Virus record (IMG/VR): IMGVR_UViG_3300008113_000417
Span: 1 to 42,263 of that record
Direction: 5' to 3' (one strand)
DNA length: 42,263 nucleotides
Origin: a virus
In this document: piece by piece, positions 20,312 to 37,981 of the stretch
Layout of the letters: each line of letters opens with the position of its first letter
How positions within the stretch are numbered: the first letter of the stretch is position 1
Position numbers and translations under genes: made by a program
The notes under the pieces: generated by a model
Database searches by the model: none
What the model was told of the DNA's origin: nothing
Seen by the model: only the letters and a program-made list of their open reading frames with translations

Positions 20312-20314
20312 CTT

Positions 20315-21041: not shown

Positions 21042-21053
21042 GGACTTAATATT

Positions 21054-21226: not shown

Positions 21227-21250
21227 ATATTAGTATCACGGGATAAACCT

Positions 21251-21981: not shown

Positions 21982-22073
21982 TGAGTACTACAGCAATTTT
22001 CAATGCAGTTTTTATTTTTAGTCTCATAACAATTTTTATTAATTGGGGACTTCATAATGCATATCCACAATAA
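21981..22073 (+). CDS. 30-aa membrane peptide
   Basis: ATG 21981, TAA 22071-22073, with GGGGGA eight bases upstream of the start. The peptide is STTAIFNAVFIFSLITIFINWG plus a short polar end, so it is almost wholly membrane-spanning. The next gene overlaps its end by 17 bases. Confidence 0.5.
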   Translation: MSTTAIFNAVFIFSLITIFINWGLHNAYPQ

Positions 22074-22370: not shown

Positions 22371-22444
22371 CGGAATGTAGCTCAGTTTGGTAGAGCACTC
22401 GCTTTGGGAGCGAGTGGCCGTAGGTTCGAATCCTATCATTCCGA
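22371..22444 (+). tRNA. tRNA-Pro (anticodon TGG), second copy
   Basis: Acceptor CGGAATG/CATTCCG, anticodon arm CTCGC-TTTGGGA-GCGAG, discriminator A. Same anticodon loop as the tRNA at 18463 but different stems, so it is not a recent copy. Confidence 0.94.
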
Positions 22445-22461
22445 CTCATAAAAATTACTTT

Positions 22462-22692
22462 ATGAAAATGTATCAAGAACTAAACGAACTTCAATCATTT
22501 ACAGTCGAAGAATTTCAATTAGATTTTGAAAATCTAATGAATAGAGTTGAAAATGGCGAATCATTTATTATCCGAGATGGGAGCAATAGTGCAGTGATAG
22601 TTCCTTACAACGAAACCATAAAGTACGCAATAGAATCAACTGTGGATGATGAACTGATACGTCTCCACACAGACCATGAAGAAGGGTCTTGA
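22462..22692 (+). CDS. Phd/YefM-like antitoxin-type protein without toxin
   Basis: 76 aa from ATG 22462 (the longer frame runs through the tRNA). The layout fits Phd/YefM: SFTVEEFQLDFENLMNRVENGESFIIRDGSNSAVIVPYNE, read in two pieces, gives the N-terminal strand, the helix with NRVENGE and the strand pair ending in AVIVPY. Such proteins bind DNA as dimers and neutralise toxins such as Doc or YoeB. No toxin gene is adjacent. It could be an orphan antitoxin against a host toxin or a repressor of its own promoter. Confidence 0.65.
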   Translation: MKMYQELNELQSFTVEEFQLDFENLMNRVENGESFIIRDGSNSAVIVPYNETIKYAIESTVDDELIRLHTDHEEGS

Positions 22693-22717
22693 CGAATCGT
22701 TCCAGATCCGCTACTAT
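22689..22717 (+). promoter_or_regulatory. sigma70-type promoter for tRNA-Ile and tRNA-Met
   Basis: TTGACG 22689-22694, TACTAT 22712-22717, 17-base spacer. CCAGATC and GATCTGG form a 7-bp hairpin whose loop carries the -10 box. Confidence 0.75.
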
Positions 22718-22731
22718 AGATCTGGTTTCAA

Positions 22732-22803
22732 GGGACTGTCGCCTATTGGTTAAGGCCCACTGCTTATAACGGTGTGAAGAGAGTTCAATTCTCTCCAGTC
22801 CTA
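22732..22803 (+). tRNA. tRNA-Ile (anticodon TAT)
   Basis: Acceptor GGGACTG/CAGTCCT, anticodon arm CACTG-CTTATAA-CGGTG, T-arm AGAGA-GTTCAAT region, discriminator A. It reads AUA directly, a job that most bacteria give to a lysidine-modified CAT tRNA. Confidence 0.9.
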
Positions 22804-22806
22804 CTT

Positions 22807-22879
22807 GCTCCTTTAGCAATCTGGTGAATGCAGCGAACTCATAATTCGCCTGAGGCGTGTTCGATCCACGCAAGGAGCA
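22807..22879 (+). tRNA. tRNA with CAT anticodon (probably Met), second copy
   Basis: Acceptor GCTCCTT/AAGGAGC, anticodon arm GCGAA-CTCATAA-TTCGC, T-arm GCGTG-TTCGATC-CACGC. Not an initiator by its paired 1-72 bases. Confidence 0.92.
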
Positions 22880-22904
22880 TAGGACAGAATCAGTACTGTC
22901 CACC

Positions 22905-23698: not shown

Positions 23699-23833
23699 AA
23701 CTAAGTGGTGGAGTCAATATGACCCTATTAGGTTTCTTGCCATTCCTTCAAAAGGCAAGTGGTGCGGATGGGACTCTCTCCCGCCTGGTTTCCAATTTCC
23801 AGTCAAAGAATTGGTGGCGAGCCTGAGTCACAG

Positions 23834-23861
23834 AGGTGGGTTGCATAAACCCACCTTTTTT
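23834..23861 (+). terminator. Rho-independent terminator before the glycan block
   Basis: AGGTGGGTT (23834-23842) pairs with AACCCACCT (23848-23856), followed by a T-run. The -35 box of the next promoter sits in its 3' arm and loop. Confidence 0.85.
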
Positions 23862-23869
23862 AGTATAAT
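23841..23869 (+). promoter_or_regulatory. sigma70-type promoter for the glycan block
   Basis: TTGCAT 23841-23846 and TATAAT 23864-23869, 17-base spacer, about 26 bases before the first ATG. It overlaps the terminator, so the block starts where the previous unit ends. Confidence 0.75.
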
Positions 23870-23894: not shown

Positions 23895-24986
23895 ATGAGC
23901 GATTATAAAAAAACGGCACTTGTACTTGGTGCTGGTGGATTCATTGGAAGCCACATGGTAAAGCGTTTGAAAGCAGAGGGATATTGGGTTCGTGGTGTAG
24001 ATCTCAAATATCCTGAGTTTTCTATTTCAGAAGCAGATGAATTTATTCAAGGTGACTTGCGTGACATGAGTTTTGTTCGCCGTGTTCTTGAATTCAAAGG
24101 TGAGCAAGGTAATTTTTACGCCAGTGTTCCTTATCGCTGCATTCTTCCGTTCCACGAAATCTATCAGTTTGCTGCTGATATGGGTGGTGCAGGATTCGTC
24201 TTTACTGGCGAAAATGATGCAGATATCATGCATAACTCGTCACAAATTAACCTTAATGTTCTTGAGGCACAGCGCCAACTGAATGAAACATTTGATGGTG
24301 TTGATAATGGAACTGCATGTGTTCGACCTGTTTTAGAATATCAAACCAAAATTTTCTATTCTGGATCTGCCTGTATGTATCCAGAGCATAATCAACTTGA
24401 TCCAGACAATCCTGACTGCCGTGAAGAATCAGCATACCCAGCTAACCCAGATTCTGAGTATGGTTGGGAGAAGTTGTTCTCAGAGCGGTTGTTTCTCGCT
24501 TATTCTCGTAATTATGGGATCCCTGTTCGGGTTGCTAGGTATCATAATATCTTCGGACCTGAAGGAACCTGGGAAGGTGGAAGAGAGAAAGCACCTGCAG
24601 CAATCTGTCGTAAAGTAGCATATCTTCCAAAGGAAGGTGGTACAATTGATGTTTGGGGTGATGGAAAACAGACTCGTTCATTCCTCTACATTGATGAATG
24701 TATTGAAGCAACCCGCCGAATGATGGATTCTGACTTCCAAGGTCCAGTGAATATTGGTTCTGAGGAAATGGTAACTATCAATCAACTTGTAGATATTGCT
24801 GCTAAAGTTTCTGGTAAAACTGTAGAGAAGAATCATATTGATGGTCCTCTTGGTGTTCGTGGTCGTAATTCCAATAATGATCTTATCCGCGAAAAACTTG
24901 GTTGGGATTATTCTCAAACCTTAGAGGAAGGAATTCGTAAGACGTATTCTTGGATTAATGATCAGATCGAATCTACAAATAAGTGA
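23895..24986 (+). CDS. GDP-mannose 3,5-epimerase-like SDR enzyme
   Basis: 363 aa extended short-chain dehydrogenase/reductase. The NAD-binding GAGGFIG is at residues 12-18 and the catalytic YxxxK at Y189-K193, with SGSACMYPE before it. The match goes well beyond the general fold: HNIFGPEGTWEGGREKAPAA, VWGDGKQTRSFLYIDEC and GVRGRNSNNDLI are signature blocks of plant and bacterial GDP-mannose 3,5-epimerase, which makes GDP-L-galactose. It is the first gene behind the block's promoter and has more GC-rich codons than its neighbours. The product could feed a surface polysaccharide. Confidence 0.85.
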   Translation: MSDYKKTALVLGAGGFIGSHMVKRLKAEGYWVRGVDLKYPEFSISEADEFIQGDLRDMSFVRRVLEFKGEQGNFYASVPYRCILPFHEIYQFAADMGGAGFVFTGENDADIMHNSSQINLNVLEAQRQLNETFDGVDNGTACVRPVLEYQTKIFYSGSACMYPEHNQLDPDNPDCREESAYPANPDSEYGWEKLFSERLFLAYSRNYGIPVRVARYHNIFGPEGTWEGGREKAPAAICRKVAYLPKEGGTIDVWGDGKQTRSFLYIDECIEATRRMMDSDFQGPVNIGSEEMVTINQLVDIAAKVSGKTVEKNHIDGPLGVRGRNSNNDLIREKLGWDYSQTLEEGIRKTYSWINDQIESTNK

Positions 24987-24994
24987 ATAGTAGC

Positions 24995-25831
24995 ATGAAT
25001 ATTGCAGTATTAGGTTCAAGTGGTCAAGTTGGAGCATACCTGACCGAATATCTTCGTGGAAAAGGTCATACTGTCCATGAATTCGATGTTGTGAATGGAC
25101 CAGAACAAGATATGACTAGAATTCCAAATTCGTCATTGGAAATGGCGATACAAGATTCTGACTTTGTATTCTTCCTTGCATTTGATGTTGGTGGTTCTCG
25201 TTATCTCAAGAAGTATCAACATACTTTCCAGTTTATTGATAACAATACTCGTTTGATGGCAAATGCTTTTGGATATCTTCAAAAGCATAATAAGAGATTT
25301 ATCTTTGCTTCATCACAGATGAGTAACATGAGTTATTCTCCATATGGTGTGCTTAAAAATGTTGGTGAACTCTATACTAAGTCATTGAATGGATTGATTG
25401 TTAAGTTTTGGAATGTTTATGGAATTGAAAAAGATCACGAAAAATCCCATGTCATTACTGACTTCATCCGCAAAGGTTTTGAAACTGGTGTCATTGACAT
25501 GCTTACTGATGGACAAGAAGAGCGAGAGTTTCTATACGCAGAAGACTGTTGTGAAGCATTGGAATCAATAATGAATAACTACTCCGAATTTACTAGTGAG
25601 GATGAACTTCATATTACAAGTTTCCAACCAATTAAAATTATTGATATTGCAAATGTTATTGTCGATCAATTTAAATCGATGGGAAAAGAAGTGAAAATTG
25701 TCCCTTCGCAGGAGAAAGATTCTGTTCAAATGGATAAGAAAAATAAACCAAATACTTATATCAATAAGTACTGGGTATCCAAAACATCTATTGAAGAGGG
25801 TATTTCTAATATAATAAAGGAGATGATTTAA
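24995..25831 (+). CDS. NAD-dependent epimerase/dehydratase (extended SDR)
   Basis: 279 aa from ATG 24995; a GTG at 24983 overlapping the upstream stop is the alternative. The Rossmann motif is GSSGQVGAYL and the chain has a typical SDR core: DSDFVFFLAFDVGG, FIFASSQMS, YGVLKNVGE (YxxxK). The DSVQMDKKNKPNT near the C-terminus is the substrate-side insertion. The Tyr-Lys pair is present, so it should be active on a nucleotide sugar. Substrate unknown; second enzyme in the glycan operon. Confidence 0.75.
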   Translation: MNIAVLGSSGQVGAYLTEYLRGKGHTVHEFDVVNGPEQDMTRIPNSSLEMAIQDSDFVFFLAFDVGGSRYLKKYQHTFQFIDNNTRLMANAFGYLQKHNKRFIFASSQMSNMSYSPYGVLKNVGELYTKSLNGLIVKFWNVYGIEKDHEKSHVITDFIRKGFETGVIDMLTDGQEEREFLYAEDCCEALESIMNNYSEFTSEDELHITSFQPIKIIDIANVIVDQFKSMGKEVKIVPSQEKDSVQMDKKNKPNTYINKYWVSKTSIEEGISNIIKEMI

Positions 25832-26700
25832 TGTTAGCTTTTAATCACCTGGGAAATCTGGGCAGACTTGGCAACCAAATGTTTGAGTATGCTGCTCTGC
25901 GTGGAATAGCAGCAAAAAATAATTATGATTGGTGTATTCCACCATTCTCAGTTACTGGCATAGAAAACTACAGTCTTCATGAATGTTTCAAATTAGAATC
26001 TGTTACTGAAGATAGACAAGATATAAGAGAAGATTTTTTGCATCTTAAAGAAAGGTATTTTCATTATGATCAAGAACTTTACGAGAACTGCCCAGATAAT
26101 GTAAGTCTCTATGGTTTTTTTCAATCTGAAAAATACTTCAAAGAAGTGTCCGAAGATATTAGAAAAGAATTTACATTTCTTGATTATCATCTTGATCCCT
26201 GTTTGGAATTTATATCAGAATTTAAAAATCAAAATCCAATCTTTATTCATATAAGACGAGGTGATCCTAATCTTGTTGATCCTAGAGGGTTTAAATGGGC
26301 ATATGTTAATTGCCAGGATCAACATCCTTTACAGACAATGGAATATTATTCTCAAGCACTTGATAAGTTTAATGATAATCAACCAGTTATTGTCTTTTCG
26401 GATTCTCCCGAATGGGTCGAAAGTCAAAAATTATTTAAAGGTGATAGATTTTTTATATCACAACCACAAGAAAAATATGAAGATGGATCGTATACTCCGT
26501 ATACTGATTTGTGCTTGATGTCTTTGTGTTCTCATGCTATTATTGCTAATAGTTCACTTTCTTGGTGGGGAGCTTGGCTAATTAATAATCCTAATAAAAA
26601 AGTAATCGCGCCAAAAAAATGGTTTGGTCCGTCTTATGCAGACAAAGATACTAAAGATTTGTATTGTCCAGAATGGGAGGTATTTGAGGAAACTGTATGA
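25831..26700 (+). CDS. GT11-type fucosyltransferase
   Basis: 289 aa. The three GT11 landmarks are present: GRLGNQMFEYAALRG near residue 11-25, HIRRGD around 141-146 (GDP-fucose site) and IIANSSLSWWGAWL near 234-247. These enzymes transfer L-fucose from GDP-fucose, often in alpha-1,2 linkage. It starts one base from the previous stop and overlaps the next gene by 4 bases. Its closest relative in the window is the gene at 33240. Whether GDP-fucose is the donor in a cyanobacterium, or GDP-L-galactose from the first gene, is open. Confidence 0.85.
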   Translation: MLAFNHLGNLGRLGNQMFEYAALRGIAAKNNYDWCIPPFSVTGIENYSLHECFKLESVTEDRQDIREDFLHLKERYFHYDQELYENCPDNVSLYGFFQSEKYFKEVSEDIRKEFTFLDYHLDPCLEFISEFKNQNPIFIHIRRGDPNLVDPRGFKWAYVNCQDQHPLQTMEYYSQALDKFNDNQPVIVFSDSPEWVESQKLFKGDRFFISQPQEKYEDGSYTPYTDLCLMSLCSHAIIANSSLSWWGAWLINNPNKKVIAPKKWFGPSYADKDTKDLYCPEWEVFEETV

Positions 26701-27692
26701 AAATATTTGTAACCGGTTGTGCAGGTCTTCTTGGATCTAATTATACGCGACATTTGATTTTAAATGGTCATGATGTTATTGGTATAGATAATCTTTCTGG
26801 TGGTTATCGAGCATTTCTACCAAAAGCAGAAAATTTTACTTTTGTAAAACTTGATCTGGAAAAAAGAAAAAAAGTTGTAGAACTGTTTGAAGAACACAGA
26901 CCAGATATTCTTCTTCATTTTGCTGCATACGCTGCTGAAGGACTTTCTCCTTTTATTAGAAATTTTAATTATCGGAATAATCTTATTTGTTCTGCAAACC
27001 TGATTAATGAATGTATTAAACATGATACAAAAATAATCTTCACTTCTAGTATGGCTGTATATGGGGAACAAGATCCACCATTTACTGAAGATAAAAAACC
27101 ACAACCAATTGACCCATATGGTATCGCTAAGTATGCTGTTGAATGTGATTTGAAATTGGCACATGAACAGTTTGGTTTGAGATATAATATCGTAAGACCA
27201 CACAATGTTCTTGGAATATATCAAAACATTTGGGACCGCTATCGTAATGTGATCGGCATTTTTATCCGCAAAACTTTGAATGGTCAACCTATTCTTGTTT
27301 ATGGTGATGGAGAACAGACTCGTGCTTTCTCAGATATCAAATATTACATGCAACCTTTTGATAAACTTCTTACTGATTTTGATGGAGAAACTTTTAATAT
27401 TGGCGCAGATAAGTATTTTACTTTAAATGAAGTTGCGGAAACCGTTCAAAGAATTGGTAAAAAGTATGGGTATGAAGTTCCTATTGAACATGGAGAACCC
27501 AGACATGAAGTAAAACATGCTTATTGTGATCACACAAAAGCAAAAACTATGTTAGAATTTAGAGATGAAACAAATCTCGATGAACTAATTGAAAGTATGT
27601 TTGTTTGGGCAATGAAACAACCAAACAGAAAAGTTAAGACAATGGAGTATGAAGTTACAAAAGACATTTACGAATATTGGAAGCAAGTATGA
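26697..27692 (+). CDS. UDP-sugar 4-epimerase-like SDR enzyme
   Basis: 331 aa. GCAGLLGSNY is the NAD motif, DNLSGGYR is the usual GalE/WbpP acidic-residue loop, TSSMAVYGEQ and YGIAKYAVE provide Ser and the YxxxK pair, and VYGDGEQTRAFSDI is the common sugar-binding block. Similar to GalE-type and UDP-N-acetyl-glucosamine epimerases. Overlaps both neighbours by ATGA, so it is within one operon. Confidence 0.8.
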   Translation: MKIFVTGCAGLLGSNYTRHLILNGHDVIGIDNLSGGYRAFLPKAENFTFVKLDLEKRKKVVELFEEHRPDILLHFAAYAAEGLSPFIRNFNYRNNLICSANLINECIKHDTKIIFTSSMAVYGEQDPPFTEDKKPQPIDPYGIAKYAVECDLKLAHEQFGLRYNIVRPHNVLGIYQNIWDRYRNVIGIFIRKTLNGQPILVYGDGEQTRAFSDIKYYMQPFDKLLTDFDGETFNIGADKYFTLNEVAETVQRIGKKYGYEVPIEHGEPRHEVKHAYCDHTKAKTMLEFRDETNLDELIESMFVWAMKQPNRKVKTMEYEVTKDIYEYWKQV

Positions 27693-28381
27693 TTGACGAA
27701 TTTATTTTTCCCGAATGTAATCGGTATTTTAAAAAAGATCTTGATAATCTAAGATATAAGTTTGATGGTGTAGAAACAATTGAGAATAACTATTCTCAAG
27801 CTTTTCAGGATATGTTTGCTCTTAGCATTCTTAATGGAAAGAAAAATGGAACCTATGTTGAGATAGGTGGAGATCATGCTGTAATTATTAGCAACACCTA
27901 TCTGCTAGAATCTAAATTTGATTGGACAGGCGTTTCTTTCGAAATTGATCCAGAAAAAGTTAATGGATATAATTCGATTAGAAAAAACAAATGTGTATGT
28001 GCAAATGCTCTAGAGGTTGACTTTAAAAAGATTTTTGAAGAAAGAAATCTTCCAAAGCAAATTGATTATCTTCAGGTAGATATAGAACCTGCTTGGCAAA
28101 CATTGAATGCTTTAAAGGCTATTCCACTTGATGAATACAGATTTTCTGTTATTACTTATGAAACCGATCTTTATAAAGACGGTCCAGAACCACAAGAAGA
28201 AGCAATGCAACTTCTTACCTCATATGGATATGAATTGGTAGTTAGAAATGTTGCAAATTTGAACAATCCTTATGAAGATTGGTATATTGATCCAAAAGCA
28301 GTTGATAGTGAAATTGTAAAACTATTCAAACAACCTGGTAGGTTGTCTAAAGAAAGCACTGATTGTATATTTGGAAATTAA
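27689..28381 (+). CDS. FkbM-like SAM-dependent methyltransferase, first copy
   Basis: 230 aa from ATG 27689 (a TTG upstream is less likely). NNYSQAFQDMFALSIL, then TYVEIGGDHAV as SAM motif I, then SFEIDPEK as the acidic motif II. The second half keeps the FkbM pattern LQVDIEPAWQTL. Such enzymes often O-methylate sugars of surface polysaccharides. The frame overlaps the upstream stop. Confidence 0.75.
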   Translation: MIDEFIFPECNRYFKKDLDNLRYKFDGVETIENNYSQAFQDMFALSILNGKKNGTYVEIGGDHAVIISNTYLLESKFDWTGVSFEIDPEKVNGYNSIRKNKCVCANALEVDFKKIFEERNLPKQIDYLQVDIEPAWQTLNALKAIPLDEYRFSVITYETDLYKDGPEPQEEAMQLLTSYGYELVVRNVANLNNPYEDWYIDPKAVDSEIVKLFKQPGRLSKESTDCIFGN

Positions 28382-28382
28382 A

Positions 28383-29009
28383 ATGATTATTAGTCTTGGG
28401 TCTATAATTAGAAAATACGACATCAATATTTCTGGTGTTATCCATGTTGGTGGACACATTGGACAAGAAATGCAGTCTTATAAAGACAACAATATTAATA
28501 ATCTTATTGTCTTTGAACCTCAAAAAGAACCATTTGCAAAATTGTCTAAAGTTGCAAAATCAATGAATTTTGAAAATTTAGAATTGCATAATGTAGCATT
28601 AGGGACTGAAAACAAAACCGTAGAAATGCATTGTAATATTGACGGATTGTGTAGTTCTATTTTAAAACCAAAACATGTTCTGGTTCAATATCCAGATATT
28701 ACTTTTGATTCTACTGAAACTGTAGAAATGGTTACAATGGATTCTATAATTCCAGAGGATCATTCTTACAATTTTATTAATATGGATACCCAAGGGTATG
28801 AACTCGAAGTTTTAAAAGGAGCTACTACAACTCTTAATAAAATTGATTATGTGTATACTGAAGTTAATAATACTGAAGTTTACGAAAATAATGCTATGAT
28901 AGAAGATATTGATGAATTTCTAAAATCATATAATATGACCAGAGTTGAAACTGATTGGATAGGTGGAACTTGGGGAGATGCATTCTATATTAATAAGGAC
29001 CTTATATGA
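28383..29009 (+). CDS. FkbM-family methyltransferase, second copy
   Basis: 208 aa from ATG 28383. GVIHVGGHIGQEMQSY is SAM motif I and LIVFEPQKEPFAKL motif II; VTMDSIIPE and INMDTQGYELEVLKGA are the FkbM signature. Coupled to neighbours by 1 base gap and 4-base overlap. A second methyltransferase in the same operon suggests that two different sugar positions, or two glycans, are methylated. Confidence 0.85.
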   Translation: MIISLGSIIRKYDINISGVIHVGGHIGQEMQSYKDNNINNLIVFEPQKEPFAKLSKVAKSMNFENLELHNVALGTENKTVEMHCNIDGLCSSILKPKHVLVQYPDITFDSTETVEMVTMDSIIPEDHSYNFINMDTQGYELEVLKGATTTLNKIDYVYTEVNNTEVYENNAMIEDIDEFLKSYNMTRVETDWIGGTWGDAFYINKDLI

Positions 29010-29794
29010 GTATACTTTACACTATCAGTAATTGGTACGGGAGACTTGGAAATAATATCCAACAGATTTGTAATGGAATAATTTTTTCAGAAATTAATGA
29101 TTCTGGATTTTTTACTCCTCCTCACGAACTAATTGATCAAATTATTTTCAATCAGAGAAATCAAACAATGGTTAGGCCCTCTAGGTTTTTCCATTATAAT
29201 ACTGAAAATAAAGATTTTGAGATTGATATAAATTATCTCTATAAAAATATGAGAAGGGTTGCAAAGGAGTATGTAATTAATAAATTTAAATTCTCGATAA
29301 AGGATCCTTTTGATGAAGATACTTTAGTTATTCATATCCGTAGTGGTGATATTTTTGCACATGAACATAATCCACCTCATGACTATGTTCCAAATCCTCT
29401 GGTATACTATTTAAATCTTATTGAAGAATATGAAAAAGTTATAGTTGTTACTGAACCTGACAACTATAATCCAATCATAGATGAATTGAGAAAAAATAAT
29501 AAAGTTACAATTCAATCTTCTAATGTTTCTGATGATTTTTCTACTCTTTTGAGAGCAAAAAATTTAGCTTCCTCTGGTGTAGGAACTTTTGCAGTTGCAG
29601 CTGCTCTGTGTTCAAATAATATTAAAAAATTTTACTGTACAAATTTATATCTTGATGAGCACTTAAATCCGGAAATGTTATATGAAACTGATATATCTGT
29701 TTATATGATGGAGTTAAATGACTATATTAATCTTAAAGAATGGAAAAACAATGAAGAACAACGTAAATTCATTTTGGAGTATAAGATTAAATGA
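29006..29794 (+). CDS. GT11-like glycosyltransferase, diverged
   Basis: 262 aa. It has GRLGNNIQQICNG near the N-terminus and VIHIRSGD near residues 108-115, which match the donor site of GT11 fucosyltransferases, but the WWGAWL end motif is replaced by SSGVGTFAVAAAL. It is therefore a more distant member, with a possibly different donor. Overlaps neighbours at ATGA. Confidence 0.65.
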   Translation: MSILYTISNWYGRLGNNIQQICNGIIFSEINDSGFFTPPHELIDQIIFNQRNQTMVRPSRFFHYNTENKDFEIDINYLYKNMRRVAKEYVINKFKFSIKDPFDEDTLVIHIRSGDIFAHEHNPPHDYVPNPLVYYLNLIEEYEKVIVVTEPDNYNPIIDELRKNNKVTIQSSNVSDDFSTLLRAKNLASSGVGTFAVAAALCSNNIKKFYCTNLYLDEHLNPEMLYETDISVYMMELNDYINLKEWKNNEEQRKFILEYKIK

Positions 29795-30648
29795 AAATTT
29801 TTGATTCCGTAATTTTCTTTAACGAATTAGATCTTCTGGAAATTAGGTTAAATGTACTTAATGATTTTGTGGATTATTTTGTAATCACAGAGTCTCCTTG
29901 GACAGTTAGTGGAAATTCTAAACCACTTTTTTATCTTGAGAACAAGGAAAGATTTTCTAAGTTTAATCACAAGATTATTCATAATATTACCGAAGAAATT
30001 CCAAATGATTATTCCGACTATATGGAAAAGCGGAAATATCATACTCCAATGAAAGAAAATGATAATGGAGGAAATCCATATTATCAATATCCTATTAGAT
30101 TTCAAAGAGCAATATTTAATAGAGATTCCAGCATTTATGGTGCAATAAAGGGTGGAATAAACAACGAAGATATTATAATTACGAGTGATGTTGATGAAGT
30201 TCCAAATCCTTTAATTTTTGAAAACTTAGATTGGTTTGATAAAAATAATCATTATGTGTGCCTTCAAAGAGCATTCTATTACAAATTGAACTATCTTTAT
30301 CAAGAAAATTGGATGGGATCTAGAATTTGTAGTTTTGAAAAACTGTCAGAATCTTCTGTTGATATGCTTAGAAACAATCACAAAGATTCTTATAAAATTG
30401 AAGACGGCGGATGGCATTGGAGTTTCTTTGGTGATGCTGATAATTTTAGAGCAAAACTTTCTGCATATGAACATACCGAAAACAATACAGAAGAAATTAC
30501 TTCTACTGCTGAGAAGAAAATAGAAGAAGGTATTGATCCTTTTGGTAGACCAATTCAAATAACAACCGTGCCTATTGATAGTTCATACCCAGAATATATC
30601 ATTAATAATCAAGAAAAATATTCTAATTTTATTAAACCATGGAATTGA
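29791..30648 (+). CDS. GT17-type N-acetylglucosaminyltransferase-like protein
   Basis: 285 aa. The N-terminus (IFDSVIFFNELDLLEIRLNVLNDFVDYFVITES split) is the hallmark of GT17, the family of the eukaryotic bisecting GlcNAc transferase MGAT3. IITSDVDEVP near residues 129-138 is the DxD donor site. GGWHWSFFGD is the second conserved block. A GT17 in a phage suggests transfer of GlcNAc or another sugar onto an oligosaccharide. Next gene overlaps by 10 bases. Confidence 0.85.
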   Translation: MKIFDSVIFFNELDLLEIRLNVLNDFVDYFVITESPWTVSGNSKPLFYLENKERFSKFNHKIIHNITEEIPNDYSDYMEKRKYHTPMKENDNGGNPYYQYPIRFQRAIFNRDSSIYGAIKGGINNEDIIITSDVDEVPNPLIFENLDWFDKNNHYVCLQRAFYYKLNYLYQENWMGSRICSFEKLSESSVDMLRNNHKDSYKIEDGGWHWSFFGDADNFRAKLSAYEHTENNTEEITSTAEKKIEEGIDPFGRPIQITTVPIDSSYPEYIINNQEKYSNFIKPWN

Positions 30649-31589
30649 TTGAGGGTATAGAGCTTTCAAAATTATGTGATTATTCCTTCGGAGATCAATC
30701 TGGTCAATGGGGGAATATTTTTACATCTTTTATGAAAGATGCAAATTTATTAAATTTAGAATTTGTAGAGAAGGTTTTTGAAATTAAAAAGAGCAGAGAT
30801 TATATGACTCTGTTCATTGATAATATTCGTTTATATAAAAGGCATATTGTAGAGGTTAAAGATTCTGATAGACCTTATGTTGAAGGTCTTATGGAAAAGA
30901 GTGATCTGTTAAGATTATGTTCTAATTTTCCTGATATGAGATTTATCATTTTTACTAATCTTGAAGATACTCCTATTGATGAGCATATTTTTGAATCAAT
31001 ACCAGATAATGTTCTTTGCATTAGTGCGGTAAATGCTATTGCTAACGGAGGAAAGGTAATTCCAGCTCCTTATGGTTTGCAGAGAGCAATGAGTCAGAAC
31101 GATAGTAGAATACTTGATATAAAGAGTTCTATGAGACTTTTGCCAAAAAATCCGCCTGGACTTTTATATGTTAGTCATAGCGAATCTACAAATATTGAAA
31201 GGGTAGGCATTAAAGGTATTTTTAAAAATGAATCATGGGCAGAAGTGCATGAAGAAAGAGTTCCTTATTCTGTATTTTTATATAATCTTAGTCAGTCTAA
31301 GTTTATGATTTGTCCTATCGGAAATGCTATCGATTGTCATAGGAATTGGGAAGTTCTTTATATGAGAAGAGTCCCAATAATGAAAAATCATCCTTATCTG
31401 AATAAATTATTCAATGGATATCCAGTGTTGTTTGTGGATGATTATAAAGAAGTGACGAAGCAACTTTTAGAAGACAATGAAGATTTGTTTATTAAAGCAC
31501 AGACCATGGATTTATCTCAATTGACACTTCCAACTTTTTTTGATAATATTGTAAATAAAGCTTTAAGTGGAGAATATGTTAGTAAATGA
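30639..31589 (+). CDS. Exostosin-like glycosyltransferase (GT47-type end)
   Basis: 316 aa. The C-terminal half has SKFMICPIGNAIDCHRNWEVLYMRRVPIM (in pieces), the typical exostosin/GT47 motif with the DCHRxWE core, followed by YPVLFVDDYKEV. The N-terminal half is not recognised. Such enzymes extend glucuronan- or heparan-like chains in eukaryotes, and similar domains are used by bacteria and giant viruses for other sugars. Overlaps the gene before by 10 bases and after by 14. Confidence 0.75.
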   Translation: MELIEGIELSKLCDYSFGDQSGQWGNIFTSFMKDANLLNLEFVEKVFEIKKSRDYMTLFIDNIRLYKRHIVEVKDSDRPYVEGLMEKSDLLRLCSNFPDMRFIIFTNLEDTPIDEHIFESIPDNVLCISAVNAIANGGKVIPAPYGLQRAMSQNDSRILDIKSSMRLLPKNPPGLLYVSHSESTNIERVGIKGIFKNESWAEVHEERVPYSVFLYNLSQSKFMICPIGNAIDCHRNWEVLYMRRVPIMKNHPYLNKLFNGYPVLFVDDYKEVTKQLLEDNEDLFIKAQTMDLSQLTLPTFFDNIVNKALSGEYVSK

Positions 31590-32562
31590 AATGTATCTTG
31601 GGTCTGGTCTTGGTAATCAGATTTGGGCATCTGTTGTAACCCGTATCATTGCAGAAAAATTGGGATATGAATATGGGATTAAAGGCAAAGAACTTTGGAA
31701 AGGAAATGGATGGATGAAATATTTTTGGGGTAAAGAAGTTATTGGTGGATCTGGTCCAGATGGAGGACCTCCTGATACTCTCCCAGAAGGAATTGAATTT
31801 TGGTATCGCGAACGACAAGAAGGACATTATAAGGAAGGTCGTCATCAACATGATATGAACCCAATTGACCATGGACTTTTCTTCCTTCCTGATAATACTA
31901 AAATCGATGGAACATTTCAAAATATGTTATACATCGAAGATCGTCGTGATGATATTAGAGTGTGGTGCAAAGTTGATGAAGATAAAGTTATTACTGACTA
32001 CTCTGCAGATGATATTTGTGTAATTCATTTTCGTGGTGGAGATTATTCCACTGGATTTTCCTTTCTGCCTCCCCATTACTACCAAATGGCAATCGAAAGA
32101 ATGAGGGATAGGAGAAGAGATATGAAATTTGTGATCGTTACTGACGATCTAGAACTAGCAAGAAAACACATTCCCGGAATTGAAGTTGTTGGTGCTGCAG
32201 TTTCTAATGAACCAGGAGGACCAGATTATAAAATCGGTTGGTATCAAATGAAAGGAGGACCACTATCAATTGACTATACTATTTTGCACACAGCAAAAAA
32301 TGTAATTATGTCTTCCTCTACGTTTTCATTTTGGCCTGTTTGGTTGTCTACAGAACTTAAAAATATTATTGTTCCAATGTATTGGTTTGATTGGAATACC
32401 TCTGATGGTTGGTGGAGACCTGTAGATTCAATTGTTCCTGAGTGGACTTATATGGATAGAGATGGTAAAGTTAAATTGGGTGAAGACTGTTGGCAAGAAT
32501 ACCGTAAATATAGTCATGTAATTAATCCTGAAACTTCTGGTGTTTTGGTTAAATATGAATAA
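31576..32562 (+). CDS. GT11-like glycosyltransferase
   Basis: 328 aa from ATG 31576 (GTG 31567 and ATG 31591 are alternatives; GGAG lies 3 bases before the chosen one). GSGLGNQIWASVVTRII, VIHFRGGDYS and MSSSTFSFWPVWLSTE fit the three GT11 blocks in a diverged form. Several Trp- and Gly-rich loops (GGSGPDGGPPD) are unusual. Its codons are somewhat richer in GC than the two genes before it. Donor unknown. Confidence 0.7.
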   Translation: MLVNEMYLGSGLGNQIWASVVTRIIAEKLGYEYGIKGKELWKGNGWMKYFWGKEVIGGSGPDGGPPDTLPEGIEFWYRERQEGHYKEGRHQHDMNPIDHGLFFLPDNTKIDGTFQNMLYIEDRRDDIRVWCKVDEDKVITDYSADDICVIHFRGGDYSTGFSFLPPHYYQMAIERMRDRRRDMKFVIVTDDLELARKHIPGIEVVGAAVSNEPGGPDYKIGWYQMKGGPLSIDYTILHTAKNVIMSSSTFSFWPVWLSTELKNIIVPMYWFDWNTSDGWWRPVDSIVPEWTYMDRDGKVKLGEDCWQEYRKYSHVINPETSGVLVKYE

Positions 32563-33232
32563 GATTAGTCTTCCAAATGTAACTCTTTTTTGCATTTCTT
32601 CTAACAATATTCCAGGTGCTCTCTATGCTCTGCAAAAAAGTATGGAGGGTATATCCTTTGGAAAAGTAAAATTAATTACCCACGAGTATCCTGGTAATCT
32701 TCCTGAAGGAATTGAGTTTTCTAAATGCTATAAGATAGAATCAATCCATGATTATAATTATTATTGCATCTATAATCTCACTAAACATATTGACACTGAT
32801 TATTGTCTACTTGTTCAACCGGATGGGTATGTTATTAGACCGTGGAACTGGGACAACACCTGGTTTAACTACGACTACATTGGAGCACCATGGAGATGGG
32901 AAGAGGCGTCATTTGTGACTCCATTTGGCGAACATATTTCAGTTGGTAATGGTGGGTTTAGTTTTAGAAGTAAAAAACTTTTAGATGTTCCTACCAAAGT
33001 TCAAGTACCTTGGGATGTGAATAAAGGAAATTTTTATAAGCATTTTGGGTATGGGTCAACTTCAGAAGACGGAAATATATGTGTTCATAACAGACATATA
33101 TACGAAGAACAAGGATGCAAGTTTGCTCCTATAGAAGTTGCAGCAAAATTCTCTAAAGAAAGACATATATCTCCATATCATGACGGCATAGAGACTTTTG
33201 GATTTCATTTTTTTGTTCAAGATATTATTTGA
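32555..33232 (+). CDS. DUF5672-like glycosyltransferase
   Basis: 225 aa from ATG 32555. LLVQPDGYVIRPWNW, then FNYDYIGAPWRWEEA and SVGNGGFSFRSKKLLD are the three blocks that I associate with the DUF5672 family, a GT-A-type group found in polysaccharide clusters. The ATG overlaps the upstream stop by 8 bases. No catalytic detail is known to me. Confidence 0.75.
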   Translation: MNKISLPNVTLFCISSNNIPGALYALQKSMEGISFGKVKLITHEYPGNLPEGIEFSKCYKIESIHDYNYYCIYNLTKHIDTDYCLLVQPDGYVIRPWNWDNTWFNYDYIGAPWRWEEASFVTPFGEHISVGNGGFSFRSKKLLDVPTKVQVPWDVNKGNFYKHFGYGSTSEDGNICVHNRHIYEEQGCKFAPIEVAAKFSKERHISPYHDGIETFGFHFFVQDII

Positions 33233-33239
33233 GGTAAAC

Positions 33240-34013
33240 ATGATTGGATATAATCACTTAGGTCGTAATGGAAGACTTGGAAATCAAATGTTTCAATATG
33301 CGGCATTGAAAGGAATTGCTTCAAAGCATAATTATGATTATTGTATTCCCCCAAGCGAATTTAAAAATGAAAATATCGATCATCAATTATTTGAAGCTTT
33401 TGAACTTTCATCTTTAAAGCATGTTGAAATGCTTGGTGCAGTTTATACTGAGGAAAAATCTTTTACATTTGATGAAGATTTATTTGAGAATTGTTCTGAT
33501 AATGTAAATCTATATGGTTTTTTCCAAACTGAAAAATATTTCAAGCATATTGAAAATCAAATTCGGAAAGATTTCATTTTTGTAAATGATATTTGGAATC
33601 CTTGTAAGGAAGTGTTTACTTTTGATGAAGCTTTATCTCTTCATATCCGCAGAACAGATTATGTGGAGAAGCAAAATTATCATCCATTGTGCCCTCTAGA
33701 ATATTATGAAGAAGCATTAAATAAAATGCCAAAGGATATTCCAGTTCTCATTTTTTCCGATGATCCAGAATGGTGCAAAAAACAAGAACTCTTTCAACCA
33801 GATAGATTCCTCATTTCAGAATCTAATAATAATCTTGTTGACATGTGTTTAATGACTATGTGCAATTATCACATTATTGCAAATAGTTCTTTTAGTTGGT
33901 GGGGAGCATGGCTCTCTGATAGTAAGAAGATTATTGCACCTAAAGTTTGGTTTGGACCTAGTGCAAATCTTGATGATAGTGATCTTGTTCCAGAATCTTG
34001 GGAAAGAATATAA
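33240..34013 (+). CDS. GT11-type fucosyltransferase, paralogue of 25831
   Basis: 257 aa from ATG 33240 behind a GAGGT site. NGRLGNQMFQYAALKG, LHIRRTDY (donor site) and IIANSSFSWWGAWL are clear GT11 motifs. The first 40 residues match the gene at 25831 almost position by position (NHLG, NGRLGNQMF, AALKGIA, NYDYCIPP), so the two are paralogues. The second block has RRTDY in place of RRGD, which could shift specificity. Confidence 0.85.
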   Translation: MIGYNHLGRNGRLGNQMFQYAALKGIASKHNYDYCIPPSEFKNENIDHQLFEAFELSSLKHVEMLGAVYTEEKSFTFDEDLFENCSDNVNLYGFFQTEKYFKHIENQIRKDFIFVNDIWNPCKEVFTFDEALSLHIRRTDYVEKQNYHPLCPLEYYEEALNKMPKDIPVLIFSDDPEWCKKQELFQPDRFLISESNNNLVDMCLMTMCNYHIIANSSFSWWGAWLSDSKKIIAPKVWFGPSANLDDSDLVPESWERI

Positions 34014-34774
34014 TGTCTTGTAAATTTTCTATTGCGATTCCTACCCATGATCGGGGGGAAGTTGGTACTGTTTGGTTGAGGGAACTTTTTGAGTCTTTAA
34101 AAATTCAAACTTTTAGAGATTTTGATATTGTAATTTCTGATCAAAGTAAAAATGATAGTATATTGGATGTTTGTAAAGACTATTCTGAAGACTTCGAATT
34201 TACGTATATAAAGTATCAAGGATCTGTTCCTTGCGAAAATATAAATATTGCTCTAGAAAATTGTTCTGGAGACATTATTAAAATAATGTTTTCAGATGAT
34301 ATTTTTGTTAGAGAAGACGCTCTTGATATAATTCAAAAAGAATATGAAAAAACTAATTGTAAATGGGCATTCAGTGGATTTTGTGGTACAAAAGATGGAA
34401 AAACTTTTTATGACCATAAAGTTCCACAATGGACTGACTATATGTTAGAGGGTCGAAATCTTTTAAGTAGTCCTTCAGTCGTTTCTTTTCTAAATGAAGT
34501 TAAAGTAGATTTTGATGAAAATTTAAAACTGCTATTGGACACTGATTTTTATCATAGAATGAGATGGGAAAATGGTCTCCCACACATTATAGAAGATGTA
34601 CTAGTTGCTAATAGAGATCATGACAATAGAATAAGCAGTCACACTACTTCACAATATGATGCTGTTATTGAACACCCAGAAGGAAATTGGTTAATTAATA
34701 CCAGAGAATATAATTATATTCAAGAAAAATATAAGGAATTTGTACAAACAAGAAGATATCCAGATGAAAAATGA
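34013..34774 (+). CDS. GT2-family glycosyltransferase
   Basis: 253 aa from ATG 34013, whose first base is the last base of the upstream stop (TAATG). FSIAIPTHDRG, a QTFRDFDIVISDQSKND block and KIMFSDDIFV (DxD-like) are the GT-A fold of GT2. LLDTDFYHRMRWENG is the acceptor-side Asp motif. Transfers a sugar from a nucleotide donor; specificity unknown. Confidence 0.85.
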   Translation: MSCKFSIAIPTHDRGEVGTVWLRELFESLKIQTFRDFDIVISDQSKNDSILDVCKDYSEDFEFTYIKYQGSVPCENINIALENCSGDIIKIMFSDDIFVREDALDIIQKEYEKTNCKWAFSGFCGTKDGKTFYDHKVPQWTDYMLEGRNLLSSPSVVSFLNEVKVDFDENLKLLLDTDFYHRMRWENGLPHIIEDVLVANRDHDNRISSHTTSQYDAVIEHPEGNWLINTREYNYIQEKYKEFVQTRRYPDEK

Positions 34775-35585
34775 TCTTTCTAAAGCAACATTTATAATAC
34801 CAATTCAAATTGAATCTGAAGATAGACTTAGAAATGTTATAACAACGACAGCTTTTCTATTGGAAAATTTTGATACTAATATCATTATAAAAGAAGTCGA
34901 TACTACCTCGAAGTTTCAAGACGTTGCTCTACCAATATTAAAAGATGTAGTAGAATCTGATATTAATATTCTTCATATTTTTGAGCATTCAAAAGGATCT
35001 GAATTCCATAGACAGAAAATTTTGAATGAAATGATATCACAATCTAAAACTAAAATCGTAGTAAATTATGATTGCGATGTTCTACTTCCATTGGATTCAT
35101 ATCTAAGTGCATATAACAAAATATTGAATGAAGAGTGTGATATTGTATACCCTTATGGTCAAGGAATGTATCAAAGACAGGTTAAAGCAACTGATGAAAT
35201 TGTTTCTGCTTTTCTAGAAACTTCTGATTATAAAATTCTTGATAGTCATTCATCGGAGCATACCTCTGATTTTGGATGGGTTCAGTTTTTTGATCGGCAG
35301 GTCTATATTGATGGCGGAATGGAAAACGAAAACTTTGTGGCATATGCCCCAGAAGATAAAGAGAGATTTTACAGATTTTCTACGTTAGGTTATAATATTT
35401 GTAGAATCAAAAATTTAGTATATCATTTAGAACATGCTAGAGGAATTAATTCTTGGTTTAACAACCCTCATATGAATTCTAATAATTTAGAATGGGAAAA
35501 AATTAGCACAATGGACAAAGACCAACTAATCGAGTATTATTCAAAACAGGATTATTTAAAAAAGTATAACAATGGACAAAAATAA
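34764..35585 (+). CDS. GT-A-fold glycosyltransferase (galactosyltransferase-like)
   Basis: 273 aa from ATG 34764. The first half has FIIPIQIESEDRLRNVI and VNYDCDVLLP with an acidic donor motif. The second half VQFFDRQVYIDGGMENENFVAYAPEDKERFYRF resembles the C-terminal domain of galactosyltransferases (the G-x-E-D/N type). Ends in AAYNNG-like polar residues. Overlaps neighbours by 11 and 14 bases. Confidence 0.7.
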   Translation: MKNDLSKATFIIPIQIESEDRLRNVITTTAFLLENFDTNIIIKEVDTTSKFQDVALPILKDVVESDINILHIFEHSKGSEFHRQKILNEMISQSKTKIVVNYDCDVLLPLDSYLSAYNKILNEECDIVYPYGQGMYQRQVKATDEIVSAFLETSDYKILDSHSSEHTSDFGWVQFFDRQVYIDGGMENENFVAYAPEDKERFYRFSTLGYNICRIKNLVYHLEHARGINSWFNNPHMNSNNLEWEKISTMDKDQLIEYYSKQDYLKKYNNGQK

Positions 35586-36360
35586 ATCTATATTCAAATT
35601 AAAAAATATTGGACCAATATACTATATTAATCTGGACGGACAACCAGAAAGAGATCAGTATATGAAATCTCAATTTGAATATTGGAATGTTACCAATTAT
35701 AATAGAGTTTCTGCTTATGACGGAAGGGATGATGATCTGAGTGATATTATATCAGGAAAATATCCCGACAATATGACATCTGGGGAAATTGGTTGTGTAA
35801 CGTCTCATTTGAAAGCTATCAGGCATTGGTACGAAAACTCAGATTCTCCATATGCTATTATCATGGAGGATGATTGTAATTTAGATCTTGTTCGATACTG
35901 GAATTTTACTTGGGATGATTTTTATGCTCATATTCCCTACGATTGGGATGTGGTTCAGATCGCTATTATTTGCACAGGTGATATTCATGTAAAACTTCAT
36001 AAAAGATTTGTCAACGATTTTTCTACTGCGTGTTATCTTATTACTCGCCATCATGCAGAAAAACTTTTAAAATTTCATGTTAGAGGAGAAAAGTATAAAC
36101 TCGATAATGGTTGTAAACCACGACCTGTTGCAGATGATTTGATTTATAATACCGGAAATACTTACTCAATACCTCTTTTATTGTATAGAATTGAATTGGG
36201 TTCTTCAATTCATCCTGAGCATATAGATGCAATTCATAGAGGAAATTATGAAGCATTAAATCAATTTTGGAGTCAGCGTGGATCTGATATCGATATAAAA
36301 GAGTATATGGATTATGATCCATATCTCGGCAGAATAACCCAAAATTCTTCTGCTCAATGA
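35572..36360 (+). CDS. GT25-family glycosyltransferase (LPS biosynthesis type)
   Basis: 262 aa. IYYINLDGQPERDQYM, then SGEIGCVTSHLKAIRHW and YAIIMEDDCNLD are the three signature blocks of GT25, known from LPS galactosyl- and glucosyltransferases such as LgtB/LpsA. It closes the glycan operon; the next unit starts with its own promoter 5 bases after the stop. Confidence 0.88.
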   Translation: MDKNKSIFKLKNIGPIYYINLDGQPERDQYMKSQFEYWNVTNYNRVSAYDGRDDDLSDIISGKYPDNMTSGEIGCVTSHLKAIRHWYENSDSPYAIIMEDDCNLDLVRYWNFTWDDFYAHIPYDWDVVQIAIICTGDIHVKLHKRFVNDFSTACYLITRHHAEKLLKFHVRGEKYKLDNGCKPRPVADDLIYNTGNTYSIPLLLYRIELGSSIHPEHIDAIHRGNYEALNQFWSQRGSDIDIKEYMDYDPYLGRITQNSSAQ

Positions 36361-36364: not shown

Positions 36365-36393
36365 TTGACAAAGGTAAAGAAAGTCTGTATACT
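36365..36393 (+). promoter_or_regulatory. sigma70-type promoter for the porin gene
   Basis: TTGACA 36365-36370, TATACT 36388-36393, 17-base spacer. ACCTT/AAGGT flank the -35 as a short hairpin. The late element CTAAATA overlaps the -10 box (36392-36398), so the gene may be read both early and late. Confidence 0.8.
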
Positions 36394-36457: not shown

Positions 36458-37981
36458 ATGAAACTCAAACAACTGATGCTTGCACCTGTTGCTCTGGGAA
36501 TGGTTGCTCCTGTTGCTGCGAATGCTGCAGATCTTAATATGGCAGCAGTCAACCAATATTCCTCTGAACAGGTTACGAGTGTCTCACAACTGTCTGATGT
36601 TCAACCCACCGATTGGGCATATCAGGCACTCAGCAACCTTGTAGAGCGTTATGGTTGCGTTGCTGGTTATCCTAACGGCACCTATGGTGGCGGTAAGGCA
36701 ATGACTCGCTTTGAAGCAGCAGCACTTCTCAATGCTTGCCTGGATCGTGTAACTGAAAATACTGATGAACTCAAGCGTCTTGCTGATGAGTTCCGTAATG
36801 AACTGACTGTAATCCAAGGTTCTGTTTCTAAACTGGAAGCACAAGTTGGACAACTTGAAGCAACTCAGTTCTCTACAACTACCAAACTTCGTGGTGATTC
36901 TCGTTGGGTTCTTGGTGGTGTAAATTATGGTGGTGATAAAGTAAATAAGTATAACGACGCCCCTCTTCGTGAAGCGGTTACATTTAACTATGATGTTCGT
37001 CTGAACTTTGATACTTCTTTCACTGGCAAAGATTTGCTTCGCACTCAACTTCGTGCTGGTAATTTTGATGACAGTGCATTTAACGGTGCTTATCCAACCA
37101 AACTCACAAAACTTGATGCTGCTTTCCAAGAAAATCTTGGTGGCACTGATGGAGGTGACGTAGTTGCTATTCAACGTCTGTACTATCAATTCCCTGTAGG
37201 TAAGAATGTAACTGTTGTTGCTGGTCCTCGTGTTCGTCAGGATGATATGCTGGCGGTGTGGCCTTCTGTCTACAATGCAGATAAGATCCTGAACATCTTC
37301 CAGTTTGCTGGTGCTCCTGGAACTTACAGCAAGAACCTTGGTGCTGGTCTTGGTGCCTGGTATAAGAGTGGTAGTTGGTCTTTAGGTGCTAACTACGTTG
37401 CTGCTGATGGTGATGTTGGTGATAGTGCTGAAGGTGGCGTGTTTAATGGCAATTCTGCTGCTACTACCACTGTTCAACTTGGTTACACTGGTAAGAACTG
37501 GAACCTGACTGGTGCTTATACTTATGCAACCAATGGTGTTTCAATTCAAGGAACTAATGAATTAGTATCTTCACTTCCTAACTCTGAAACTGGTGGCAAT
37601 ACCAACTCATTTGCTCTGTCTGGTTATTGGCAACCTTCTACCTCTGGTTGGGTTCCTTCCATCTCTGCTGGTTGGGGATATAATAACTCTTCCTATACTG
37701 AGGGTGGTGATACTGCTTCTCAGTCTTGGTACACTGGACTGGTTTGGAAAGATGTAATTGCTAAGGGCAATGCTCTTGGATTTGCAGTCGGTCAACCTAC
37801 TTTTGTCACAGAACAAAACAGTGTAGACGGTAATGATGGTAACTATGCACTTGAAGGTTACTATAAAGTGCAAGTTACCGATAATATCGCAGTCACTCCT
37901 TCAGTATTCTATCTAAGTAATCCTGCTGGTGGTGGACTAGATGCTTTTGGAGCACTTGTTCAGACAACCTTTAAATTCTGA
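36458..37981 (+). CDS. SomA/OprB-type outer-membrane porin with SLH domain
   Basis: 507 aa. A signal peptide (MKLKQLMLAPVALGMVAPVAANA, cut after AxA near residue 23) is followed by an SLH domain (VQPTDWAYQALSNLVERYGCVAGYP, near 48-95), a short coiled coil (DELKRLADEFRNELTVIQGSVSKLEAQVGQLE) and a barrel of alternating strands ending in Phe (TTFKF). This is the domain order of cyanobacterial porins such as SomA and of iron-uptake porins. The GC content and codon use are closer to host-like highly expressed genes than to the AT-rich glycan block. A phage copy could alter nutrient entry or replace a receptor on the cell surface. Confidence 0.93.
   Translation: MKLKQLMLAPVALGMVAPVAANAADLNMAAVNQYSSEQVTSVSQLSDVQPTDWAYQALSNLVERYGCVAGYPNGTYGGGKAMTRFEAAALLNACLDRVTENTDELKRLADEFRNELTVIQGSVSKLEAQVGQLEATQFSTTTKLRGDSRWVLGGVNYGGDKVNKYNDAPLREAVTFNYDVRLNFDTSFTGKDLLRTQLRAGNFDDSAFNGAYPTKLTKLDAAFQENLGGTDGGDVVAIQRLYYQFPVGKNVTVVAGPRVRQDDMLAVWPSVYNADKILNIFQFAGAPGTYSKNLGAGLGAWYKSGSWSLGANYVAADGDVGDSAEGGVFNGNSAATTTVQLGYTGKNWNLTGAYTYATNGVSIQGTNELVSSLPNSETGGNTNSFALSGYWQPSTSGWVPSISAGWGYNNSSYTEGGDTASQSWYTGLVWKDVIAKGNALGFAVGQPTFVTEQNSVDGNDGNYALEGYYKVQVTDNIAVTPSVFYLSNPAGGGLDAFGALVQTTFKF

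Follow-up and report, generated by a model that had tools for sequence, protein, structure and literature searches.

The stretch of DNA analysed here, called the window, is a virus record of 42,263 bases (IMGVR_UViG_3300008113_000417) that encodes a DnaB-type helicase, nrdA, an nrdB homologue and 23 tRNAs. Judged by its gene content it is a fragment of a T4-like cyanophage, with its kin among the T4-like phages of Synechococcus and Prochlorococcus. On its + strand, at 23895-36360, lies an island of 15 open reading frames (ORFs), which a first-pass annotation had described as an operon for glycan synthesis and decoration. All 15 ORFs are present at these coordinates. They encode three enzymes of the short-chain dehydrogenase/reductase (SDR) type, two FkbM-like methyltransferases and ten glycosyltransferase (GT)-like proteins (Table 1). 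Some of the listed ORF starts are overlong; with the checked internal ATGs (24995, 27689, 28383, 31576, 32555, 33240, 34013 and 34764), adjacent genes overlap by 1-14 bases or are separated by 1-8. That this cassette is functional, owned by the phage and exchangeable is well supported by its catalytic motifs, selective constraint, architecture and distribution.

Table 1. The glycan island and its flanking elements, in coordinates of the window
Feature	Position	Strand	Evidence
Terminator and sigma70-type promoter, 5' of island	23832-23869	+	stem 23832-23858; -35 TTGCAT 23841-23846, 17 bases, -10 TATAAT 23864-23869
Gene 1, GDP-mannose 3,5-epimerase (GME)	23895-24986	+	PDB 2c59 E 1.8e-82; Pfam 1.6e-35; motifs kept
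Gene 2, SDR sugar-nucleotide enzyme	24983-25831	+	Pfam Epimerase 3.3e-23
Gene 3, GT11 fucosyltransferase-type	25831-26700	+	Pfam GT11 4e-24
Gene 4, GalE-like UDP-sugar 4-epimerase	26697-27692	+	Pfam 4.7e-45; PDB 4zrm 3.5e-41; under NCBIfam galE cut-off
Gene 5, FkbM-like methyltransferase	27689-28381	+	Pfam E 0.0033, under cut-off
Gene 6, FkbM methyltransferase	28383-29009	+	Pfam 1.1e-15; NCBIfam TIGR01444 over cut-off
Gene 7, GT-B fucosyltransferase-like fold, HxRxGD motif	29006-29794	+	alignment; model pLDDT 88.7; FUT8 Z 11.3
Gene 8, GT17	29791-30648	+	Pfam 4.6e-30
Gene 9, GT114-like (A075L-like) glycosyltransferase	30639-31589	+	PDB profile 8.3e-31; fold E 2.5e-12
Gene 10, GT11-like	31576-32562	+	Pfam 7.9e-11
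Gene 11, DUF5672 glycosyltransferase-like	32555-33232	+	Pfam 4e-18
Gene 12, GT11, gene 3 paralogue	33240-34013	+	Pfam 1.1e-25; family in 27/30 islands
Gene 13, GT2	34013-34774	+	Pfam 1.2e-11
Gene 14, phrog_15655, weakly GT2/galactosyltransferase-like	34764-35585	+	PHROG 7.8e-114; family in 21/30 islands
Gene 15, GT25, conserved 3' end gene	35572-36360	+	Pfam 7.3e-14; PHROG 2835 4.2e-124
Near-consensus sigma70 promoter 5' of porin	36365-36393	+	TTGACA-17-TATACT
Phage-type OprB/SLH outer-membrane porin	36458-37981	+	Pfam OprB 1e-18 and SLH; NCBIfam NF033921 8.4e-90

Gene 1, already called GME-like in the first-pass annotation, matches the GME of Arabidopsis in the PDB. Patterns drawn from a published list of GME features (PMC6678494) were searched in 89 distinct phage copies, where GxxGxxG, the SxC site, YxxxK and the catalytic Lys were found in 89, 87, 89 and 82, respectively; of the seven exceptions to the last pattern, the three whose sequences were inspected keep GGREK. 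By these motifs gene 1 is a GME, with the predicted activity of converting GDP-mannose to GDP-L-galactose (GDP-L-Gal) or GDP-L-gulose. None of genes 1, 2 and 4 exceeds the NCBIfam cut-off for GDP-mannose 4,6-dehydratase (GMD) or fucose synthase, and a host GMD found weak matches only in the window (best E = 0.001), in a search that did not include mannose-6-phosphate isomerase (MPI).

The families first proposed for the remaining genes were borne out in part. Hidden Markov models recognised the SDR enzymes, one FkbM methyltransferase, three GT11 proteins, GT17, DUF5672, GT2 and GT25, whereas gene 5 stayed under the cut-off and genes 7, 9 and 14 gave blank or weak results (for gene 14, GT2 at E = 0.095). 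The proposed duplication of GT11 also stands, genes 3 and 12 being 51% identical. Genes 3, 10 and 12 exceed the cut-off of PF01531 and carry the motifs HIRRGD, HFRGGD and HIRRTD; such an HxRRxD-like motif, which we take to be a hallmark of GT11, is found in 37 of the 51 GT11-cluster proteins from the islands. The best PDB profile match of gene 15 is mimivirus R655 (E = 8.8e-6), ahead of a bacterial GT25 at 0.0042 and of procollagen galactosyltransferase 1 at 0.025.

Gene 9 had been labelled exostosin-like, and GT114-like is the better name. Its only Pfam match, to RXYLT1_C, lies under the cut-off. A profile of 26 gene 9 sequences matched A075L of chlorovirus PBCV-1 in the PDB over the C-terminal half, and the predicted model (pLDDT, the model's confidence score, 87.7) matched the GT-B fold of A075L with a template modelling (TM) score of 0.63/0.71 and a root-mean-square deviation (rmsd) of 5.7, the next entry having E = 1.4e-4. 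Over the A075L structures as a whole, TM scores are 0.62-0.71 and rmsd 5.6-6.2. A075L is a β-xylosyltransferase of the PBCV-1 capsid N-glycan and defined family GT114 (PMC11571054). Its donor-site residues Arg158, Arg208 and Glu211, in the numbering of that paper and with the offset set by the N202-G203-R208-E211 spacing, correspond to R188, R235 and E238 of gene 9, which are invariant in the 26 sequences. Invariant D61 is a candidate counterpart of the catalytic base Asp73. The donor-site Asn148 is not kept, the aligned residue in gene 9 being Ser, and gene 9 is therefore called GT114-like only. Its best matches in a library of viral models are unnamed or phage proteins, with one 'exostosin' of S-SKS1.

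Gene 7 gave no match in Pfam or in a profile search against PDB sequences. The top matches of its model are FUT8 (209 residues, rmsd 3.9), NodZ and POFUT1, and an alignment of 19 sequences shows H110, R112, G114 and D115 unchanged throughout. Since Foldseek returned weak matches at most (E = 1.7e-3 for the best, none at or below 0.001) and heptosyltransferases (Z 9.5) come close behind FUT8, the model is taken to indicate a FUT8/NodZ/POFUT-like fold as a fold class only. Structure prediction, proposed earlier as a check, thus gave a class for gene 7 and supported a GT114-like assignment for gene 9. Among the Pfam matches of the 15 proteins no flippase, polymerase, ABC exporter, initiating transferase or Wzx/Wzy was recognised, and none of the proteins has a typical membrane-helix stretch (highest mean Kyte-Doolittle hydropathy over 19 residues, 1.34).

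Selective constraint was estimated from up to four homologues per gene at 73-94% identity. The ratio of nonsynonymous to synonymous substitution rates (dN/dS) is about 0.04-0.2 for all 15 genes in the usable pairs, and 0.20-0.24 for the porin; the ratios are rough because many dS values approach or exceed 1. The alignments of gene 11 with L101 and L100 covered 2 codons, and these two pairs were excluded as artefacts of frame breaks; in one pair of gene 14, dS is saturated.

T4-like cyanophages were reported by Sullivan et al. (2010) to carry clusters of lipopolysaccharide (LPS) genes in the vicinity of hli03 and tRNAs, in a text that leaves undecided whether these clusters are functional or 'stuffer DNA' (PMC3037559). 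The LPS cluster of S-SM2 shares with the window nrdB, tRNAs, small conserved ORFs, SDR enzymes, GTs, a GT11 (T4-GC 260) and a GT25 (T4-GC 266) at the 3' end, and the S-SM2 matches of genes 12 and 15 lie where SSM2_215 (52%) and SSM2_216 (58%) are located; individual matching covered T4-GCs 260 and 266, named in that text along with five other clusters. In contrast to the LPS clusters of S-SM2, S-SSM7 and P-SSM2, no heptose genes were seen in the window, whose cargo has GT17, GT114-like, DUF5672 and extra GT11-type genes. After GT25 the window passes directly to the porin, whereas S-SM2 has DUF680 genes, pstS and phoA before hli03. A GME in a cyanophage is already in print: the T4-like S-SCSM1 is reported to encode GME, GTs, fucosyltransferases, GMD, GDP-L-fucose synthase and MPI (PMC9602691; the GME is reported again in PMC10665884). 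Its GME homologue is 62% identical to gene 1, and it differs from the window, whose SDR enzymes reach neither of the corresponding cut-offs, in having GMD and GDP-L-fucose synthase.

The search for gene order in other cyanophages, which had also been suggested, located islands at a like place in S-SM2, Sf-CH5, S-T4 and RN05-S. There the island lies between nrdB, accompanied by tRNAs in all but one of these phages, and the hli/ferredoxin genes, from which pstS and phoA separate it in S-SM2. Three of these islands finish at the 3' end with the order GT, gene 14 homologue, GT11, GT25. GME lies at or near the 5' end; that it always comes first was rejected, given annotated sugar-nucleotide genes ahead of it in S-SM2 and RN05-S. 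Such an SDR-type match ahead of GME was found in 2 of the 16 islands with enough upstream sequence, by a test that misses S-SM2.

GME and GT25 in one orientation within 30 kb were found in 34 sequences, reduced to 30 islands, the window included, by dropping those with more than 80% shared 21-mers. These islands, chosen for having both end genes, contain 371 ORFs, ends included, which fall into 102 clusters, 43 of them confined to a single island; 27 islands have a GT11 and 21 a member of the gene 14 family. Compared with the loci L030 and L181, the window stays similar in DNA as far as the end of gene 1 (24967) and becomes so again from the start of gene 15 (35556 and 35552); inside the island, similarity is absent or limited to short GT pieces. 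With L178 and L180 it ends at 24967 and 24972. This is the pattern that cargo exchange between conserved ends would leave.

The cargo itself is a recurring type. Genes 8, 9, 11 and 12 are present at 34 other loci on 28 contigs, one of which is identical to the window, and the idea of a unique gene combination was dropped. At L100-L102 and L108, the counterpart of the GT11 encoded by gene 3 sits between genes 14 and 15. In records of cultured or single-cell phages gene 9 occurs in 2 and gene 8 in 7, and a DNA-level search of the island among phages matched gene 1 alone, with coverage of 8% at best. The end genes are common to the island family: GME at at least 60% identity is in 37 phage records, all named cyanophages or marine single-cell viruses, and GT25 in 97 (GenBank and RefSeq duplicates of one phage counted separately). 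The earlier view that only a few T4-like cyanophages carry LPS-type clusters was therefore too narrow. The proposal of a distinct pathway keeps its force for the middle cargo, which is rare in cultured phages, but not for the ends, nor as a singular case given the other loci.

Further genomic analysis addressed the host family, taken as the family of G001, the genome with the Cyanobium locus L256. A true GME was found in 1 of 251 host-family genomes, 13 further genomes matching only as SDR enzymes of 28-38% identity; a sample of the phylum had GME in 2 of 292 genomes at 49-50% identity. These counts come from genomes of unstated completeness, with the best 6-8 SDR candidates per genome scored. 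GT25 of the cassette kind was found in none of 201 host-family genomes, with all five phage records used as positive controls recovered. GT11 was present in 11 of 201 (best 48%), GT17 in 3 and gene 9, partially, in 1. The search works in this family, as the porin was found in 59 of 61 genomes and GMD over the cut-off in 125 of 201. The rarity of GME and GT25 in the sampled host family means that the usual picture of a host-derived auxiliary gene fits the ends of the island poorly. The single host-family GME (G022, L319, G022:C1:256000-275000) is 83% identical to the phage GME; its neighbourhood looks like a polysaccharide locus, and a gene exchange between phage and host, in either direction, is likely. 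A literature search found no paper on the general place of GME in cyanophage islands or on its rarity in hosts.

The first-pass annotation had placed one promoter in front of the island. It is present at 23841-23869, partly within a terminator hairpin, the -35 box falling in its stem, an overlap also visible in L004, L030, L162, L178 and L181. Its -10 box is perfect and its -35 box matches at 3 of 6 positions; the total of 9/12 kept it off the list of the promoter scan. Among 89 distinct 90-base regions upstream of gene 1, a sigma70-like score of at least 10 is reached in 49 (55%) against 2.8% of mononucleotide shuffles, and at least 9 in 79 against 21%, with the related upstream sequences not independent. 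The T4-late-like ATAAATA is in 3 of the 89 (shuffles 5.6%). Before the structural genes of S-SM2, ATAAATA stands in 6 of 15 cases (150 bases searched, all within 47) and a sigma70 score of at least 10 in none. The cassette promoters are of sigma70 type, not of T4-late type. Internal promoters from the scan were dropped, with 74 matches where 67 ± 8.9 were expected.

The gene that follows GT25 encodes an outer-membrane porin whose SLH domain and OprB barrel exceed their cut-offs and which belongs to the 'iron uptake porin' subfamily (NF033921). Such a porin lies directly 3' of GT25 in 43 of 71 loci (the best 80 of 595 confirmed GT25 stretches minus 9 too short, the window contig included), and in a few loci (L027, L252) it stands 5' of GME instead. 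Viral contigs yielded 241 candidate stretches, and 240 of them encode relatives. In the porin tree phage and host copies are split by one branch (support 81/93, 80% of bootstrap trees, 55 of 88 phage rows used); this separation is not strong. Upstream of porins, a sigma70 score of at least 10 was found in 7 of 82 regions and the late motif in 13, without a consistent promoter; the strong porin promoter of the window is thus not general. A relative is annotated as a porin in S-SRM01; the text of the S-SRM01 paper does not contain the word 'porin', and the literature search found no paper treating a cyanophage porin. Phage-supplied porins have a precedent in gene lc of the lambdoid phage PA-2. 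The window porin differs from it in being of OprB/SLH type, in a T4-like cyanophage and beside a glycan cassette. The island neighbourhood also holds hli, ferredoxin and peroxiredoxin genes.

Elsewhere in the window, 22 of the 23 tRNAs are encoded 5' of the island, at 17737-22880, in a partly GC-richer stretch; tRNA-Met and tRNA-Ile each have two genes there. A C39-peptidase-like protein (39633-40304) and a phage lysozyme (40403-41098) have alike N-terminal regions of about 50 residues, as if they had one common targeting module. The product of the last ORF, at 41241-42263 and cut by the contig end, begins with a signal-like stretch and contains a long PTPEPTPE repeat; its relatives adjoin the lysozyme in several loci.

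From these genes a pathway can be proposed. Gene 1 would convert host GDP-mannose to GDP-L-galactose (or L-gulose), and genes 2 and 4 would supply further activated sugars. Cytosolic transferases would then build and cap an oligosaccharide, which genes 5 and 6 would methylate; four of them are fucosyltransferase-type and could use GDP-L-Gal or GDP-L-fucose (GDP-L-Fuc). Several fucosyltransferases, FUT8 included, accept GDP-L-Gal (PMC8787198), and the pattern in the islands is GME with GT11, mostly without GMD: in 1 of the 30, the fetched locus encodes a GMD with 45% identity or more across 200 residues. No flippase, polymerase or membrane GT can be recognised in the cassette, so the glycan would most likely extend a host lipid-linked or LPS-type acceptor and be exported by the host. 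The infected cell would display a foreign surface sugar, often alongside the phage-supplied porin, and the likely benefit would be to block adsorption of competing phages or to tune the envelope during infection. That an exchangeable, phage-owned glycan cassette under a host-type promoter remodels the host surface in this way, with an L-galactose/L-fucose-type glycan, has about an even chance of being right.

Several observations weigh against host-surface remodelling. The promoter score of 9/12 in the window is reached or exceeded by 21% of shuffles, and cyanophage Ma-LMM01 is described as using sigma70-like promoters for all gene classes (PMC5780444), so that such promoters are no proof of early timing. 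The porin has its own promoter and is not 3' of GT25 in 28 of the 71 loci. GMD is held by 19 other phage loci, the fetched loci are short, and in RN05-S an annotated GDP-mannose 4,6-dehydratase missed by the 45% criterion adjoins GME; the host, too, probably makes GDP-L-Fuc, given GMD in 125 of 201 genomes. The GT11 enzymes therefore need not use GDP-L-Gal. The best PDB matches of gene 9 and GT25 are viral enzymes, that of gene 9 being a capsid-glycan enzyme, and if GT25 and GME are phage-specific, their acceptor could just as well be a phage-specific one on the virion.

The last point leads to autonomous glycosylation of the virion, in which capsid, tail or fibre would be decorated in the cytoplasm as in chloroviruses, with exchangeable 'serotypes' affecting adsorption, stability or grazing. 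In its favour, the 15 proteins all appear soluble, hardly any sampled host-family genome has the end genes, and GT25 finds mimivirus R655 first. Chlorovirus glycans contain methylation and L-sugars, which the methylation and L-sugar transferases of the cassette resemble. As in the PBCV-1 capsid-glycan machinery there is a GT114-like enzyme with equivalents of Arg158, Arg208 and Glu211, A075L being its nearest solved structure; GT114 is, however, known from bacteria too (PMC11571054), PBCV-1 is an unrelated virus, and Asn148 is not kept. Also unfavourable are the sigma70-type promoters in place of the late motif seen before 6 of 15 structural genes, the outer-membrane porin as frequent neighbour and the apparent polysaccharide locus around the sole host-family GME. 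A literature search on the timing of P-SSM2 LPS genes and on phage capsid glycosylation found no paper on cyanophage virion glycans. Host surface and virion are not separated by these data; promoter type and neighbouring porin lean towards the former, and glycosylation of the virion is the less probable of the two but a serious rival. A broader formulation is put forward tentatively: a 'serotype' cassette of T4-like cyanophages making a host-foreign L-galactose-type glycan, with phage-specific GME and GT25 ends and swapped cargo, that may coat virions or, with a phage porin lineage, infected cells.

Altered envelope or nutrient handling during infection, such as sinking, grazing or iron/carbohydrate uptake through the porin, is an improbable main role in place of exclusion. 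It would suit the 'iron uptake porin' subfamily and the metabolism genes nearby, yet it leaves the variable cargo with stable ends, a pattern typical of surface antigens, unexplained. A transfer of sugars to phage DNA or host protein would follow the logic of T4, which glucosylates its own DNA (PMC9614988), and would agree with soluble enzymes and with a weak match of gene 9 to a predicted 'DNA β-glucosyltransferase' in the viral library (rank 14, E = 2.1e-5, TM 0.42/0.31). However, that match is far behind A075L, no DNA glucosyltransferase family was found in Pfam (15 genes) or NCBIfam (9 island genes scanned), and ten transferases with two methyltransferases exceed what base glucosylation would need, making this very improbable. 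Least credible of all is non-functional stuffer DNA for headful packaging, the alternative of Sullivan et al. (2010). The cargo is highly variable, and S-SSM7 and P-SSM2 owe much of their surplus genome length to large islands (PMC3037559), but all 15 genes are intact, their dN/dS argues against stuffer DNA, GME motifs are kept across copies, and the window cargo recurs on 27 contigs that differ from the window.

Bacterial O-antigen and capsule loci have the same organisation of conserved ends and exchanged cargo, with sugar-nucleotide genes, GTs and methyltransferases. The cassette differs from them in that no Wzx, Wzy, ABC exporter or initiating transferase was recognised in it.

These results bear on the question of function raised in 2010: glycan clusters of cyanophages are constrained, swappable cassettes with recurring ends behind host-type promoters. 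As GME is nearly always lacking in the sampled relatives of the host, detecting L-galactose (or L-gulose), whether in infected cells or on virions, would offer a cheap and decisive marker. Whether the outcome is at the cell surface or on the virion, either would matter for competition among phages and for virus-altered surfaces of very abundant photosynthetic cells.

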